This document shows, piece by piece, positions 8,915-18,493 of a DNA stretch of 64,000 bases. Under the pieces are notes generated by a model. The model did not search any database. It was given only the letters and a program-made list of their open reading frames with translations, and was not told the DNA's origin. This DNA comes from Antrodiella citrinella (lineage: Eukaryota > Basidiomycota > Agaricomycetes > Polyporales > Steccherinaceae), in assembly GCA_004802725.1 (NCBI GenBank), contig SGPM01000052.1, positions 4,267-68,266 of the forward strand, given 5' to 3'. Both the position numbers and the translations under genes were made by a program. Within the stretch, counting starts at the first letter, position 1, and each line of letters starts with the position of its first letter.

Positions 8915-9034
8915 GTGAGTATTCACTAGGTTGCTATCGGTGCAGATGAGGTTCAAGCTCATGGAGTCAATCGGATCGGTGACTTCAAAGATAGCATTTT
9001 AACCAACACTGACATGGTTTCTCGTATCTCGCAG
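8915..9034 (+). other. 5'UTR intron of F-box copy 3
   Basis: GTGAGT donor at 8915 and TCTCGCAG acceptor near 9034, about 22 nt before the ATG at 9057, as in the sister copies. A second CAG four bases on could also serve as acceptor. Confidence 0.45.
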
Positions 9035-9056
9035 GCAGGCCTTAAACGCTACGACC

Positions 9057-10841
9057 ATGGCACCACTCCCTTTGACTCTATCCGAAACTCACCATGCGTT
9101 GGACCGGCTCCGTCTCGAGATGTGCGAGCTGCTCACGCACGCGAACACGTTCGCGCCCATCTTTCGTCTCCCGTCGGAAATTCTCTCGAGTATCCTCCTC
9201 ATCCTGATGAGCGACTGCATGCGACCTTGGTTGAACGAGGTAGACAGCTCTAAAGCGCCTGGAATCCAACCATATTCCTGGGTGGTCTACACGCACATAT
9301 GCCGCCGCTGGCGAGAAATCGCGCTGCGATACCCTGTGCTCTGGTCTTCCCTCATCATCCACCAAAACTTACCACCAGAAGCGATGGAGACTATCATTCT
9401 TCGATCGGGTAGTATGCCGTTGCGCATCGTCATCTACAGCTGGGACAACAAAAATCCTCGGAATTTAGCGGCAGCGCTCGAGCAACTGGACCGCACGGAA
9501 GTGTTCATCTGCAGAGACGAAGTCAACGTCGCTACGTTCCCGCAACTCGAGAAGATCGACATCTCCGATGCGCCGATCCTGCGGCGTCTGTCATTGCTGG
9601 GGCTGTCGCTGTGGGATACGAGCTACCACGCGACGCTGCCGACGTTGGAAGCCCTGGAGGAGCTGGAGTATCATGAGCTCCCGCCGCATGGGTTCGCGTT
9701 CTTGCATCACCCAACGCTGACGCAGCTTATCATCAATTTTTCTACTGAGAATGACTCTGCGCAGGTGTTGCTTCAGACACTCCGCGGCCTGGAGCGGCTC
9801 CAGTTCTTGAAGGTGAACCAGGTCATGATGGGGCAAGAGCCCATACAGACAGAGTATCAGCCATGGGTAAAGGTCGTCCTTCCGCACATGCGTCGTCTAG
9901 AGCTAAGTGCGGTGAACACCGCCACGGCGTGGGATATATTCCTGTTGCATCTCACCGTCCCGCTCACAACGCGCTTCTCCATCACCCTGTTCACCACATC
10001 GAATACGACTGTCCCCGTCCTCTCGTATCTCCAGGACAGGTTGGACCAGTTCGACTACAGCCAGAGCCGACCAGGCGGCGTGTGGCCGTTCACGTCATTC
10101 GCTATTGAAAGACGTCGGACGGTTCTATGGAGCACAGATAACGACGATGACTGCACTGGCGTCTCATCAAGGCCCGTCCGGTTCCCATCCCACAGGGCAT
10201 CAGAACACGCGCCGTGGGATTCCTTCATCTACCTGCACGCATTCACCGACACCGACGCTGTCCTCTCTTCATTCCGACAGTCATTGGGCGGTGTACGCGC
10301 CCTCTACTACAAATGCGACCTCCCAGAAGACGATGCCATCCGCGCCTCGCTCTCCCACATGCGGCTCGTCGAGACACTGTGCATCCACCCCGAGACCTCC
10401 ATCTCCAAAGACCTCCAAGCCCCCTCCTCTCTTGAAGAAAGCCTCCTCGGCGCGCTGTTTCCAAAACTCCGCACCCTGATCATCCTGTGCCGCGACCCCG
10501 ACCGCACAGTATCCGACTGGAAATCATGGTGGCGCGGGCTGATCGACGCGCTCGCGTCACGGATGTACAGCGACGACGTCGCGCCCGTCGAGACGCTCAT
10601 CCTCATCCTGCCCGAGACCTTGGGCATGCCAATCGAGATGGACGTCGAGGAGGCGTTGGGGGTCGTTTCGGAGTTTGTGGAGATAAGGGCGTGCGCGGAG
10701 TGGCAGGAGAGGGTGCTGGGTCTGTTGAGAAGGAGTGGGTGTCCGAGGGATTTTGCGGATTTTGTGTACTTTAAGGGGAGGATCGCGTTAGATGGGGGGC
10801 CGGCGGACGTTTCAGTGGATGGGTGGTGGGTACATGTTTGA
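9057..10841 (+). CDS. F-box/LRR-like protein, copy 3 (intact)
   Basis: Single-exon, 594 aa. The F-box-like segment (RLPSEILSSILLIL) starts near residue 38, followed by YSWVVYTHICRRWREIAL, the same layout as copy 1. The body contains leucine-rich stretches (LRRLSLLG, LERLQFLKV, MRRLELS) and the family C-terminus SGCPRDFADFVYFK. It is expected to be an SCF substrate adaptor, with unknown substrate. An AATAAA lies at 10871-10876, 30 nt after the stop, a plausible poly(A) signal. Copies 1, 2 and 3 align end to end, so the array arose by tandem duplication together with or around the peptide genes. Confidence 0.88.
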   Translation: MAPLPLTLSETHHALDRLRLEMCELLTHANTFAPIFRLPSEILSSILLILMSDCMRPWLNEVDSSKAPGIQPYSWVVYTHICRRWREIALRYPVLWSSLIIHQNLPPEAMETIILRSGSMPLRIVIYSWDNKNPRNLAAALEQLDRTEVFICRDEVNVATFPQLEKIDISDAPILRRLSLLGLSLWDTSYHATLPTLEALEELEYHELPPHGFAFLHHPTLTQLIINFSTENDSAQVLLQTLRGLERLQFLKVNQVMMGQEPIQTEYQPWVKVVLPHMRRLELSAVNTATAWDIFLLHLTVPLTTRFSITLFTTSNTTVPVLSYLQDRLDQFDYSQSRPGGVWPFTSFAIERRRTVLWSTDNDDDCTGVSSRPVRFPSHRASEHAPWDSFIYLHAFTDTDAVLSSFRQSLGGVRALYYKCDLPEDDAIRASLSHMRLVETLCIHPETSISKDLQAPSSLEESLLGALFPKLRTLIILCRDPDRTVSDWKSWWRGLIDALASRMYSDDVAPVETLILILPETLGMPIEMDVEEALGVVSEFVEIRACAEWQERVLGLLRRSGCPRDFADFVYFKGRIALDGGPADVSVDGWWVHV

Positions 10842-10870
10842 TGTATGATGGTGTGTTGACTGTGCGAGAG

Positions 10871-10876
10871 AATAAA
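10871..10876 (+). terminator. Poly(A) signal AATAAA of F-box copy 3
   Basis: Perfect AATAAA 30 nt downstream of the stop codon, in an A/T-rich stretch. Confidence 0.5.
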
Positions 10877-11199
10877 ATACAATTTATACTTTGTCTTCGG
10901 CGTGTCACCGCACCCGGTAACAGGCCACGGCCAGGGAGTGGCCAGTGAGCCGCTCTGACCCCTTCTGACCCGGGCCCTAGTAGCTGGCCCTAGTCACCCT
11001 CTTGTCTCTCCGACATAGCTTGCATCCATCTTACGAATCTCTTCAATCTAGTTCAAGTTCCATACAATCCTATACAGCGTACTCTTTCTGACTCTTTCAG
11101 ATGTGTGTGTGTTCACTATTTAGTCATCGTTGTTGCTTGATGATATCTGATGTTCGCCAGCAGTAGTCACACGGCTTCGAGTCCTTCGAAGGAGATCGT
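10877..11199. other. Intergenic region, nothing recognised
   Basis: No protein-like frame. This is where the C-terminal half of F-box copy 4 would be expected if that gene were complete, but no similarity to the family is visible. Confidence 0.4.
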
Positions 11200-11628
11200 C
11201 TCTAATCAGAGGTGACGTTGACGTTGGACACTAGCACGCTTGACATAGTACCCTGCCAGACGGACTCTCCTTCCAGCTTCAAACGTTGGAGCATCGGCGC
11301 ATCGATGATGTCCGGTATTTTGAAGCTATATCCAAGGTCTTGCTTGAAAACGAGTTCCTTGATCCGATACAAATTGTCGAAGACTATCCTCAAACACGAG
11401 CTGACGACATGCATATGGCCGCCGTCCGGGCTTGGGATCCCGTAAAATCGAAGCGCAAGTGGTGCTACATTTTGAGGTCTATATTACTCTATAACAGTGA
11501 CAGGACTGAAGGACAGCAACGTGCAGTGGACTTTTCCCGGATCGAGATATCATGGTCTCCACCACCTCGACAAACGAGGGGATGTCAGCGTCAACGACGG
11601 CAGTAGACCATAGCGACGAACGCTGCAG
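11200..11628 (-). pseudogene. F-box/LRR-like protein copy 4, 3' fragment (left of transposon)
   Basis: Reading the minus strand from 11628 gives LQRSSLW, then VVETMISRSG (matching VDTMISRSG of copy 1), then in another frame YRIKELVF and IDAPMLQRLKL, all matching the family in order. The fragment stops at about 11200, so the C-terminal half of the gene is gone. Its 5' part lies at 16708-17023, on the other side of the transposon and in the same orientation. Confidence 0.75.
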
Positions 11629-11783
11629 AGCAAGGGGTGTCAGATCCTCCGATCGCGGCCATAGGGCAACATTAAGCGTTGCCCATAAAAGGTGAGCCAC
11701 ATGGCGAACGGCACCAGCGGCATCTGCAACGAGATTCATAGCCCGCTCTCCTTGCCGGCACCGGCACTGCTCGTCCAAACGCG
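11629..11783 (+). repeat. Left terminal inverted repeat (155 bp)
   Basis: Outer end reads AGCAAGGGGTGTCAGATCC. Identical to the reverse complement of 16553-16707. It contains a 7-bp stem hairpin (GGGCAAC...GTTGCCC) at 11664-11684. Confidence 0.95.
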
Positions 11784-11826
11784 CGCGTCGTAGTACTAGT
11801 AGCTTGTATAATAGAGAAATAGATGG

Positions 11827-14800
11827 TTATACAAACCTCAATGGTGGGACTAGGTGCGAAGTATGAGAAGAGTGAGGAGGAAGACCGTGGTATACTCGCA
11901 CAGAGCGCGGTGAGTTATTACGGTCGTAGTGGGGTATAGCAGGAGTCTCACGCCGTGCTTCGTACGACAGGGATCTCTCGTACACCCACTTCCCGTATTT
12001 ATCTTGAGGAACACCAATGCTCTTCTGCTCCTTGTCGCTGATTGCAAGGGTATCTGGAAACCCAGCCTTGTCTCGAGTACAATCACGGTCCGCATACCAC
12101 GATGAGTGACGCTCGAGTATGTGGCGCCAAATGTTGTACTTCCAGTGTATAGTCGGAGGTATGACGGGACAGAGGACACATATCAGGGGGATATTAGTGC
12201 ACGGCCTGCTTCCAGAAGACACAGATGCAGGCTGGATCTTGAAAGGGTATGCAAACGGACATGTCGATTTCGCTACATTCCCCTCTCCAATGCTGATTGG
12301 GCATTTCCCGTCAGCTGATGATTCTCCACAGAAGCCACAAGGATACAAGGGGGATACCTATGGCACGACAAGTCAGGACTGTTGCAAACTTTCTGTGACA
12401 CGAGAGAACAATACACTTACCAAGCCATTTGGTTTTGCTGAATCTACTGATGCGTCGCGACGGTGATCAAGGACTCCACGGAGTGCACGAAGAATGTGCC
12501 CACCCATATGATTCTGGTGCTCTGGTCCAGCAATCATACGATGGCATATAGCGCACTCTTGGGCTGCGTTGGGTGACACTGGAAGCGAGATTGACTGCGT
12601 GGTGTGGGAGACAACTTGAACAACACGAGAGGCTGAGTCGGATGGGCCTGGGGCTGATGTTGAACGACAGCAGTGAGCAGATCGTCATCACATTGTTAGC
12701 GACCGAAGAAAAACTGACCTGCGTGTGTGTCGACAGTAGTTGCAGCCGAGTAAGGAAACACACCATCCCGAACGTCTGCGAAGACTTGCAGCTGTGTACG
12801 TACACCGTCTTCTTCCTCGAGTCGCTTAAATAGTGTTGTCTGGGCCTCACTTAAGGTAGTAGGCGGAAACATCCAAGAGGACCGTGCATTCTCGTTGGGG
12901 GACTCGGAGTTGGTACGGCTGTCTGTGGCTTCCGATGAGGAGTTAACTGGTGTGGGACTCGGAGAGTAGCCTGGTGCACTGAAGTATTGCTGCTCGACTT
13001 GGAGTGGGAGAACAAGCCGTCCAGTTGATGGGACGACCAGATGCCGCATGTGCGTCGTCAACGAAGACTGGGTATTGCCTGTAGCGGTGAGCACATTGAA
13101 TGCAGCGTACTTCGTATCCCACACCCATGAGCCAACTTTTGTGGGGTTTGACGGATCCGACATCGGCACAAGGGAAAGTACCTGCCCGGAGACCTCGTAA
13201 GTTGATTTTGGAAGGCATATTTCGTCTGTCGGAGCCCATCGGTAATGGTGACCACCAGACTTGATCGCCGTACATTGAACGATTGCCACAGCCATGCTCT
13301 TGTGAAGGCTGAGTCCAACGACAGTGGCGTACAATGATCCGAGACGGAAGGTCTTCCCAGGTATGGGACGCCGATGAGCTCCTTTGGATTGTTTTAAGCT
13401 CTGACCGCCGATCGAGAAGTAGCGGACTCGGAGAAGACGGTCCTGGCTTTTTTTGTAGTCAACGTCAGACGTCGGATCCATCACAACTCGAAGAACTGTC
13501 TTCTTGTGTACCACCTTATTCCCAGCACCGAGAGGCATCCAAACCGAGGGACTTGGGTTAAGACTACTCTCAGTGTCCTCCTTCGCTTCTGCAGCAAGTA
13601 CTGCAGCCCCGTTAAACGAGACCGAGTCCATCAGCTCAGTATCCACACCAATATCATGAATGTCCGCCGGTTGAGGCTCTTCGAGCGTGTCTGTGTGATT
13701 GGCAGATGACTCGGGATTGGTGCTGTTTTGAGGAGCGGCTGAGGAGTCCGTGGAGTCACAGCCTGAGGCCACGAGGGATCGGTCAACCTCTTTAGACACT
13801 CCCGGGTATTTTCCACCATTCGGTCGAAGGAGGTCAACCTTGCGTGCATGTGAATTACTGAAGTGCGACTGGATATCAAAATTGCACCCATGAGTAGCGA
13901 AGACGGCAGTTGCGAGCTCGATCCCTGTCCCGTAGCATTCCTTCAGATTGCAGCTCTTCCCTCGAAGTTCCCCCGTCCAGTGAAACGGAGATAGATGATC
14001 CAAGTCTCGCATCCGTGCCAATTTAAGTCTCTCTGGTCTCCGCTCCCATTCAGGATGGATGGCGAAGATCCTATCTAGGCGTAGGGCGGACCCGAAACGA
14101 ACACGTAGCTCCGAAACGTCCATGTTTGGTGAATGGGCACCAATCATTCTTGAACGGCCGAAAAGAACCTCTAGGCGATCAGTACCAAGATGGCACAGGA
14201 ACACCTTCAACTCCGGGTCGATATCCTTCATCTGTGCGACCCGACAGACCGCCGTCTTGAACATACACTGGAGGTCGCTGTATAGATGATGAGGCATGAA
14301 GCTGCTACCATGCTTCACGTAGAGAGCGGCTGCAATGAAAGCGAACTTCGTGAGGAGGATAATTTGGTTGGAAAGTGAAAGTGTTGGATTGAGGAAGGGT
14401 GTTACGAGAGCATCGAGCATCTCGCCAAGGAGAGAAAGCGCGTGGTAGACCGGTTGCTCTGAAGCGTTATTTGGGACTGCGAGGTGTCGAATTTTTGCAA
14501 TGAGGGTGAGAAGCCTGATTGCGCGAGGGACATCTTGAGCATCCTTTGGACGAAGCAAGACCTCAATCTCTGGATTGGGTTCATCAACGTCCTCATCATC
14601 CCATTCCTCGGGATTGAGAAGATCATATAGACTATTCTCTGACCAGTCAATATCTGACAAGCGCTCCAGCCACAATGCGAGCAAGTCTTTATGTACAACG
14701 ACACCATTGATGACCATGCCCTCTCTCGTGCAAAGAAGAGTACATACACCTGTGCCAACCGAGTCAGATACGTGCAAGGAGTCCCGAGAGAGCAGACTAC

Positions 14801-16434
14801 TCACGCTTGAATGTGTGTTTATAATCGAGGTCCTGAGTCTGTCCATCCGTGCCTGTGTACAGGTTAAACCCAGGGAGATCGTGTAGGTGTTCGTACGACG
14901 GATGTTCTGGCGTTACCTCGCAGCTCAAGCACTGCTGAAACAGTGCCGGTCTGCGCTTGGGGTCACCATCGGATGACACAGAGAGTATAGGGCCGTGAAG
15001 TTTCTTGCCGTACGGAGAGAGATTCCATGCTTGTACGAGCATCTCGTTGACTTTGAGCGCATCCACATGTGTACCCTGCTTGCAAGTTGGACGGAGAAGG
15101 ATGGGCTTCGCACCATAGTCGGTCTCGTCATTTCGAGCAATGGCAGCGACGAAAACTTCCTGACCGACATGAATCTCGCCTTTGCGTACGGCGGCAGCGA
15201 TGCCATGGATCACGTCAAGGTTGTTGCCCATTTTGACTGACTTCAACTTGCTTGAGACATGCTCGCACAGACCTGCGATGTCATCCACCTCAGCAAGATA
15301 GCAGAGACGCGAGTCACACGCGACCTCGTCCATCATTAGGGTTACTCCGTTGCGACTTGGTTTGGTACCTTCGAACATTATCTTGATGTTGTGCAGGAGG
15401 TCGGTCATTCGAATGTCTCCAGTGGATATGCGCGGAAGCAGGTTCTGACGTTGAGCGAGGATAGTCGTGCGTGCGGGAAATGCGTATGGGGAGTTGTGCA
15501 AGGCATGAAGGGCAGCCCCTCCGCCCAGCTCGTAGATTGTAGTCGCAAGATCTAACTCCCATTCCCTAAATCTACGAGGTCGAAACTCGCCACGCGTAGC
15601 CTTCTGCAGTTTCTCCAGCAACTTCTCCGCACTCCAATTCTCCTCCTTCGCAGCACGAAACACACGGTTGAGAGCCGGAATATCTTCCGTCCCGACCAAG
15701 GCCAGAATACACGACCAGGTTTCTTCGTGAACGCGAACACGCGACAAAGCCTTGTTCGTATCGAGCAGCTGTATAATTTGTGTCACCAGCGTGAATAATT
15801 GCAACTTCTAATGAAACGTACCTCCAAAACTTTATACTTGAGCGTGCGCCTCACCTCGTCTAGCCGAGCACACATTTGAATGTGGCTTAAGAACGGATTC
15901 TGCAGGCAATCTGGATCCTTCATGGCACGCTGGGTGACGAGGTCGACCAATTCCCCCGCCCCTCCACAGGCCGAGCAGGGGCTCACGCTATGCTGGTCGC
16001 CGAGTCCAGTCTCCCCGAGGCCACCTATCCATTGCCCTATTCCTCCGCCCGTAGACACATCCCCCCTCCCTGTATCCATCGTTGCACTTCCCGTACACTT
16101 CCACGATCGAATGAGGATGGTAGATGTCTTCGCGTCGACGCTGAGTAAGTTGTAGCCAGGTTTGGGGCGAGTATCGGGATCATGTATTGGGAAGGGGTAT
16201 GTCTGGTATGGAGATCCAGGAGTCCAAGGGTATTGAGCTCCGGGACATGGAATTACTGTAGTGGGTTGCGCTAATGGTGTGTAAGTATCAAATAGTATGT
16301 ATCACGGGCATATGATGTACTCACCTTGCTGATTAGTCGAGATAGAAGTAGAAGGAGAAGGATATAGAGAAGAGACATTATGAACAACGGAGATTAATGA
16401 AGAAGGTATCGCACTATGCACATTATCTACATCG
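11827..16434 (-). CDS. Transposase, RNase H-like with N- and C-terminal Cys/His clusters
   Basis: Supported exons (minus strand): A, from beyond 16430 down to 16325; B 15822..16270; C 14805..15768; D 12719..14749; E 12421..12647; F 11827..12357. All introns are GT...AG and phases agree throughout (B-F about 1400 codons). The first exon and start codon are unresolved: exon A stays open towards the right repeat without an in-frame ATG. Visible parts are a CSAC-type cysteine cluster in exon B, a region with LGGGAALHAL in C, then catalytic-type motifs MMDEVACDSR, SSDGD and DYKHTFKR, then LGTDRLEVLFGRSRM. The C-terminus has two Cys/His clusters (CAICHRM...H, and YPCGFCG...CVLC...H...H). The order D, D, DxxH resembles P-element-like RNase H-fold transposases. 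The intact frame suggests a functional element. Confidence 0.82.
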
Positions 16435-16474
16435 GTAATGTGCCATCTGAGGAAGTTGATAGTGGAAGACTTGG

Positions 16475-16557
16475 ACGCGTCGTGAACGGACGCGTTGTGG
16501 GTCCCGGATCGACGCGTTGGACGACTGTGTTGGACAGTCGAAGACGCGACGACGCGT
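16475..16557. promoter_or_regulatory. Cluster of four ACGCGT (MCB-type) sites
   Basis: ACGCGT occurs at 16475, 16490, 16512 and 16552, within 83 bp just inside and overlapping the right repeat, on the side where transposase transcription should begin. The left subterminal region has no ACGCGT. In ascomycete yeasts ACGCGT is the MBF-binding box for G1/S genes; the sites could also bind the transposase. Confidence 0.45.
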
Positions 16558-16707
16558 TTGGACGAGCAGTGCCGGTGCCGGCAAGGAGAGCGGGCTATGA
16601 ATCTCGTTGCAGATGCCGCTGGTGCCGTTCGCCATGTGGCTCACCTTTTATGGGCAACGCTTAATGTTGCCCTATGGCCGCGATCGGAGGATCTGACACC
16701 CCTTGCT
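16553..16707 (-). repeat. Right terminal inverted repeat (155 bp)
   Basis: Exact reverse complement of 11629-11783. It overlaps an ATAAAAGG box that, on the minus strand, could act as the core promoter of the transposase. Confidence 0.95.
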
Positions 16708-17023
16708 ACAGACATGTGCGTAGTCGAACCCAGGCGTAGCCGCGTAGGGGTCGTAGCGTCTCCACCTCGGGTACGAGGAATCACCGGCACTAGGCAGGTT
16801 CAGTATCACCAGCGGGTTCATCAGGGTCTCGTGTCATACAAGGTCGCAGGTGGTCGTGCACAAGTATCAGTGGCAAGACACTCGACAATATCTCCGAGGG
16901 AAGACGATAGGCAGGCGAGAATGAGTTGAAATGCATTTGGAGCTCCATGAGCTCTCTTTCAAAATCCGAGCAATCGCTACCTGGGGTTTCAGCAGGTGTA
17001 GATGGCATTGAGAGGAGACCCAT
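16708..17023 (-). pseudogene. F-box/LRR-like protein copy 4, 5' fragment (right of transposon)
   Basis: The minus strand from an ATG at 17023 (ATGGGTCTCCTC) reads into FSPAYRLPSEILSSVLPLIL, the family's F-box start. The frame is lost at a stop near 16790, but in another frame the sequence reaches YAHVC, equivalent to YTHIC of copy 3, right at the transposon edge. With the fragment at 11200-11628 it makes one collinear but interrupted gene. The extra frame break means the gene may have been decaying before or after insertion. Confidence 0.72.
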
Positions 17024-17537
17024 GACCGTTTGCAGTCCAGACGATGGTAGTAACGTCACGAGGGACCTGCCAATGCGACGCGACGCGTTAGTTTCAGAAA
17101 GAAAAAGTGTTAATTAACCGTTGTACACTAGCTAGTACATGCTAGAGAGTCGGGACAACAGGAAGAAAAAGGCTGATGATACGATGAACATACCAAAGTT
17201 GAAATCTTCGGCACGCCTGTGTTCGATCCCAAGTTGTCTCGCAGACTCACTGCGAGCTCTTGAGCACCACAGTGCAATACAGGCGTAGACGGTAGACGGC
17301 ACTTACGAAGATCCAACTTTTACTTGACACGCAGACAAACGGGTTGGAGATTCAAGCTTTACATAACGTTGCCGCTGCCAGTTTGCAAACGATTTTCCAG
17401 GGTTATGTTGTTACGTAATTCCATGTACAGGGTGCGAGAAGTAGGCGCCGACGATACCAGTGTCCAGCCTGAGTGTCCGAGCCCTTCCCCCATTTCTCTA
17501 CCTTCAATCTCTTTGTCCATCGTCCACTGTCTCAGTG
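17024..17537. other. Intergenic region, no gene seen
   Basis: A/T-rich stretch with short frames only. One more ACGCGT occurs near 17085. Confidence 0.35.
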
Positions 17538-18493
17538 ATGGATGAAAACCATGAATCTGTAATAATCGTCTATTGATCGTCGTCTCGTGCAGAAACTGCT
17601 GATTCGATTGCTTGCAGCTGCCGCCCTGGTCAGAACTCCAATGCCTCTCTGACAGTGCTCTCGTAGACATCTACGAGCAATCAATAATGGAAACACAACA
17701 CTCAAATTCTCCTTCGGTTGCTCGCTGGATTGGCCGCGACACAGTAGCAAAGGCAGCACCGCTGAAGCAGCAGCTCTTGCACTCGTCAGCTCTTCCACCA
17801 CAGTACCGCTGTCTAAGCTGTTACGCACCATTCCGATCACCAACTATGTATCTCTTGATACACTTCTTATTATGGAGTACATACCGGGACAGTCTCTTGA
17901 AAAGTGCTGGCCCCGGTTGTCTCTGTGGAGGAAGGTTTTCGTAATGTGGACACTGAGGGGATACGTCCTGCAGTTCCGTGGTAGCCCTTTCCATGTCGCT
18001 GGTCACGTACCATGGCCTGGTCCAGTTTCCACTCAACCCGTAGCGTGCATTGGAGAGATATTCACTGATTATGTGAGTGTATAGCCTGTCATGATGATAT
18101 TGCGCTAACCGGTGACTTCAGGATGCTGGTCCGTTCGCCACGTATGACGAACTCGCCGCATGGTATCAGCATAAGCTCGACGTCGCCATGCACATGAACA
18201 AAGCGCTTCCTAATACGGAACCGTTTGACCGCTCCATGCCTTTGGTCTTCACTCACCTCGACCTTTCGCCCGAAAACGTCGTTCTAGACAAGAACAACCG
18301 TCTTTGGGTCATCGACTTCGGTCTATCAGGATTCTACCCGCTATGGTTCGAGTATACAATCATGAAGCATCCATGGGAGCGCATGGCAAAATACGGGATT
18401 TTGATTGCGAAACTCATCGCCGGGTTTTACCAGAGACAGTTGAGATTCTTCAACTCCATATCTTGGGTATTGACCACGGGTGCCATGATGTGA
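17538..18493 (+). CDS. Aminoglycoside-phosphotransferase-like kinase, one frameshift
   Basis: Exon 1 17538..17558 (ATG GAT GAA...), exon 2 18 kb-side from 17618 to 18072, exon 3 18122..18493. The APH/choline-kinase fold is shown by VARWIGRDTVAK (nucleotide-loop region), MEYIPGQSLEKCW (hinge), the Brenner motif HLDLSPENVVLD and the metal-binding IDFGLSGFYP. Such genes are common in Agaricomycetes; substrates are unknown. Between about 17740 and 17760 the homologous reading moves to another frame (STAEAAALALV continues in the new frame to LLIMEY), so this copy carries a one-base indel. It may be a young pseudogene, or this could be a sequence error. Confidence 0.65.

Follow-up and report, generated by a model that had tools for sequence, protein, structure and literature searches.

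A long-repeat DNA transposon within an F-box gene of Antrodiella citrinella very likely belongs to the P-element superfamily

To which transposon superfamily does an element belong whose two long inverted repeats enclose the gene of a protein annotated as hypothetical? This question is raised by a locus of the wood-rotting mushroom Antrodiella citrinella on contig SGPM01000052.1 (GenBank assembly GCA_004802725.1), within a stretch of 64,000 nucleotides that was analysed as a whole and is here called the window. A preliminary description of the window had assigned the locus to an unnamed transposase family. Our analysis leads to a different answer: the element is very likely a cut-and-paste DNA transposon that looks intact, was mobile in recent times and belongs to the P-element superfamily, its transposase being of a lineage encountered to date in mushrooms.

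The evidence that carries this assignment is the predicted catalytic fold of the transposase, which structure comparison identified as the P-element superfamily fold, so the family need not go unnamed. The encoded protein is EUX98_g2906 of A. citrinella (P0001, 100% match), a hypothetical protein of 1,023 aa, and its residues 64-571 were aligned with the P fold at nearly 11 Z units over the next fold. As in the P superfamily, a mostly helical insertion divides the predicted RNase H core, entering between beta5 and the helix carrying the catalytic Glu. Among the 27 proteins that a search with the transposase returned at E<=0.001 (counting the gene of the query itself), the catalytic D, D and E are kept in 26, 27 and 24 members, respectively, and the DxxH signature retains its Asp in 23/27 and its His in 24/27; an excerpt of PMC8230255 gives the catalytic signature of the superfamily as [C/D](2)H. 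Further, an Asp lies three residues ahead of the catalytic Glu in 25 of the 27, the same spacing as that between D528, one of the guanosine triphosphate (GTP)-binding residues of the P insertion domain, and E531.

The boundaries of the element and the traces that its relatives left at their target sites were examined in the 30.0-Mb assembly (602 contigs, with the window on C462). The mismatch-free 155-bp inverted repeats of the preliminary description are present exactly as claimed, with arms at 11629-11783 and 16553-16707 that are 155 nt each, complementary at 100%, and the sole inverted pair reported within 10500-18000 (minimum length 20, seed 12). A genome search with the arm gave 10 matches, the window's own two arms included, and the eight others start at base 3 of the arm (four), base 2 (two), base 1 (one) or base 12 (one). 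In a copy split between C160 and C463, an identical 8 bp lies directly outside CAAGGGG at both ends. Because these flanks place the end at CAAGGGG and half of the eight arm matches start at base 3, we take the outermost 2 bp of each arm to be flanking DNA, which gives an element of 5,075 bp at 11631..16705, its gene on the minus strand, with terminal inverted repeats (TIRs) of 153 bp. The left TIR (11631..11783, plus strand) starts with CAAGGGGTGTCAG, the base at which several other copies also start, and is 100% complementary to the right TIR (16553..16705, minus strand) found in the inverted-pair search. An Rfam scan of the window gave no match.

Transposase matches were found at nine genome loci, if C160 and its C463 half are taken as a single locus and C218 as two loci. 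TIRs bound six of the nine (the window copy, C160/C463, C590, C255, C575 and one at C218), and four of these six carry perfect 8-bp target site duplications (TSDs), namely CGTCGACA, TTGTAGGC, GGAGTATG and GACAGACG, the TSD length of the P superfamily; the chance of a perfect 8-bp TSD is 1.5e-5 per copy for a fixed pair of ends. C160/C463 is probably one split element, since the halves at the two contig ends are complementary and share their TSD. It is nearly identical to the window copy: along one side, 1,159 aligned columns contain 4 substitutions and 26 gap columns, and along the other, 615 columns contain 5 substitutions. Further copies with the same ends, for which the preliminary description had proposed a search, are thus present. 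Short TIR-only or decayed relatives were also seen at C190 (652 bp), C318 (86%), C175 (73% over 1,013 bp) and C91 (75%). At C190 (943-1594) the 652 bp run from TIR to TIR and no C190 site is among the transposase matches, so repeats without the gene, which had been named beforehand as an argument against a transposon, do formally occur; this is as expected of non-autonomous derivatives of DNA transposons, which the C190 element looks like. Its flanks are unlike (TTTCAACT/ACATGATG), and the C218 copy at the contig end (9646-9949) has ACATGATG on its left, a pattern that may have arisen because the assembly is chimeric at this point or because elements recombined. Another A. citrinella protein, P0005, has no near-identical site in the assembly (best 57%); the assembly may therefore be incomplete, and the copy numbers are lower bounds.

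The element is largely filled by a multi-exon gene whose consistent splice phases had been noticed earlier and are borne out here. Its five open blocks, all on the minus strand, are joined by GT-AG introns in phases 0, 1, 1 and 0 into a stop-free frame of 1,421 codons up to a TAA ending at 11827. Residues 28-1399 of the joined protein align with P0003 of Lyophyllum (46% over 1,380 columns), and about 30 residues near 80-110 are absent from P0003 and may be an unrecognised intron, at about 15989-16088. Open frames and the P0003 alignment place an exon with an N-terminal Cys motif (CPG...C...CxxC) at 15822..16270, the 5' end of the gene lying further upstream. The next exon (14805..15768) encodes the first half of the RNase H core, with the catalytic D codons at 15328-15330 and 14968-14970 and the DxxH Asp at 14824-14826, and the third (12719..14749) encodes the insertion domain, the catalytic E (14169-14171) and a beta-rich C-terminal region; these codon positions were counted by hand. 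The beta-rich region (P0001 residues ~800-1000) comes after the RNase H core and outside the stretch aligned with the P fold. The last two exons, at 12421..12653 (CxxC...H) and 11827..12357 (PCGFCG...WKYN..H, stop TAA), were placed by homologs and the P0003 alignment and carry motifs that look zinc-finger-like by eye. The NCBI model P0001 leaves out both ends of the gene, terminates by reading into an intron and is without the C-terminal cysteine/histidine motifs.

The family to which this transposase belongs had been described beforehand as uncharacterised in mushrooms, and our searches agree. A profile search gave 103 matches, 85 of them named and called hypothetical (this and the protein search each scored ~8,000 candidates); many hosts are in Mycena and Favolaschia, and all named hosts belong to genera that we take to be Agaricomycetes. 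No listed member carries a transposase domain in the precomputed Pfam annotation, a Pfam scan of the spliced protein found no family, and a sequence search of the PDB with the transposase gave chance matches only. Pfam scans of 27 members (E<=5) and 42 members (E<=1), 6 of them in common, covered 63 members and gave no significant transposase match. These scans listed THAP neither for the spliced protein nor for either set, many members of which are without the N-terminal part; the domain is stated to be absent from fungi in an excerpt of PMC7776569.

Several observations weigh against the assignment to the P superfamily or against an intact, mobile element. Sequence support for P is weak: the Pfam TNP-like RNase H families score 0.023 at best for the N part and 0.093 for the C part, each in 2/27 members, and in the second set (6 members shared) they appear in 2/42 and 1/42, while several apparently unrelated families score as well in the same scans. 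A genome-wide search with PF21787 gave no match and is uninformative, as the controls were equally silent. Two TIR-bounded copies are without a perfect TSD, the window copy (6/8) and C590 (2/8), and no TIR/TSD pair was found at the transposase-like loci C549 (where the match lies near the contig end), C410 and the second one of C218. Finally, no start codon could be assigned to the transposase, and the further block upstream of the five joined ones has no in-frame ATG.

Other explanations were also weighed. With no significant sequence match to any known transposase, the element could represent a superfamily of its own, or a branch close to the Kyakuja-Dileera-Zisupton (KDZ) transposons that is P-like in fold only. 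KDZ elements are present in the same genome, and Zisupton and Dileera likewise make 8-bp TSDs (excerpt of PMC12730594); the folds listed in the structure comparison include no KDZ structure, which excludes nothing. However, the KDZ profile PF18758 has 26 genome matches (best candidates scored), none at the transposase loci, an hhalign comparison with one KDZ stretch gave a probability of 0.14%, and the P fold leads the next by the margin given above, so we regard a separate or KDZ-like origin as improbable. In that weak alignment (0.14%), 'DE...YFADTGLMGMVCRHD' of the KDZ stretch on C103 is paired with 'DE...YLAEVDDIAGLCEH' of the transposase family near the first catalytic Asp, probably by chance.

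Membership in the hAT superfamily seems more doubtful still. The 8-bp TSDs and the CA...TG ends would fit it, and the termini, CA(A)GGGGTG-like, resemble hAT TIRs, but none of the 11 genome sites of the hAT C-terminal dimerisation domain PF05699 falls at a transposase locus. A domesticated host gene, or an assembly artefact between chance inverted repeats, would be in keeping with an assembly in 602 contigs, with at least one related element (C190) whose flanks do not match and with the imperfect TSD of the window copy. We consider it highly improbable, given that the two flanks of the window copy resemble one F-box gene and that four other copies have perfect 8-bp TSDs.

If the element is indeed a P-type transposon, it differs in several respects from those described so far. 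It shares with the Drosophila P element (PDB 6p5a/6pe2) the split RNase H fold, the mostly helical insertion after DxxH, the D-D-E triad, the Asp three residues ahead of the Glu and the 8-bp TSD. In contrast, no THAP domain was detected in the mushroom transposase, which has cysteine/zinc-finger-like N and C termini; its TIRs are 153 bp rather than 31 bp, its length is 5.1 kb rather than 2.9 kb, and the two transposases share 12-13% sequence identity in structural alignments. P elements also end in CA...TG, like the mushroom element. THAP9 and zebrafish Pdre2 have the catalytic signature of the superfamily (excerpt of PMC8230255), but theirs are THAP-domain proteins of animal hosts, and human THAP9 is described as domesticated. 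Among fungi, P-superfamily elements were reported in 2011 from rusts, until then being unknown in any Dikarya according to an excerpt of PMC3164196, with 8-bp TSDs in Melampsora. These basidiomycete elements (Repbase P-1_PSt, P-1_MLP and P-2_MLP) come from another subphylum, and no rust name occurs among the 85 named of the 103 profile matches, although the sequences themselves were not compared. In the literature searched by term, which yielded the rust report and did not cover Repbase/Dfam, we found no report of such an element in Agaricomycetes.

The window copy lies in an F-box gene of the minus strand, as had been proposed, for both flanks resemble one F-box gene with paralogs at four loci (C462:13326, C181, C56 and C46). 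Its N-terminal exon, with the motif RLPSEIL, is at 16790..17113 and its continuation, starting LQRSSLWSTAVV, at 11479..11630, both on the minus strand. The 8-mers flanking the element, CTGCAGAG (11623..11630) and CTACAGAC (16706..16713), match at 6/8 positions. We considered a decayed TSD, but three of the four paralog loci favour native codons on both sides: in these, six residues separate 'AL' from the 'THxC' Cys (C-RRWREI-AL, C-HHLRSV-AL, C-RRWRDI-AL), and in the stretch examined at C181 no such motif was found. In the window copy, '...YAHVC AG' closes the right flank and 'CT CTG CAG' (L Q...) opens the left one. By codon count against the paralogs, ~17 bp of the target are missing and the 8-mers are native; the window copy therefore probably has no TSD. 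The absent perfect TSD and the apparent target loss suggest that the insertion was imperfect or that a local deletion followed it. A further F-box paralog adjoins the interrupted gene on the opposite strand (9003-10841, plus strand, open frame of 612 codons). Separately, the homologous transposase model P0016 (Coprinellus aureogranulatus) has an N-terminal extension resembling an F-box protein, and one of the 27 family members, P0016 or another, matches Pfam F-box at 0.00098. Insertions may often land in F-box genes, or such genes may simply be common.

The preliminary description had called the element young on account of its perfect TIRs. This argument is weak, as a new insertion does not reset the TIRs of a DNA transposon and their identity is thus no clock; the low divergence between copies is better evidence for the same view, and together with the intact frame it indicates recent activity. 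Judged from its sequence, the element also appears to be autonomous.

In the mechanism that we propose, the zinc-finger-like motifs at the N and C termini of the transposase would take the role of a THAP domain and bind the element ends, which the enzyme would pair and cut at CAAGGGG. Insertion would occur with an 8-bp stagger, possibly with GTP bound by the insertion domain, and the gaps filled by host repair would become the target duplications. The window copy disrupts an F-box gene. More speculatively, and with considerable doubt, mushrooms may harbor a large lineage of P-type transposases of their own that is mobile to this day, recognises DNA through zinc-finger domains rather than THAP, uses unusually long TIRs and has perhaps altered or lost the GTP dependence thought unique to P, the ends of the window copy having joined target sites ~17 bp apart.

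Research on P elements has centred on animals; these findings would add mushrooms, where the ends are precisely defined and target duplications are present, and they offer a likely name and mechanism for a family of 103 profile matches whose 85 named members are called hypothetical. In a P transposase without THAP, the role of the GTP-binding insertion could be tested independently of THAP binding, and the enzyme may be useful for mutagenesis of mushrooms.
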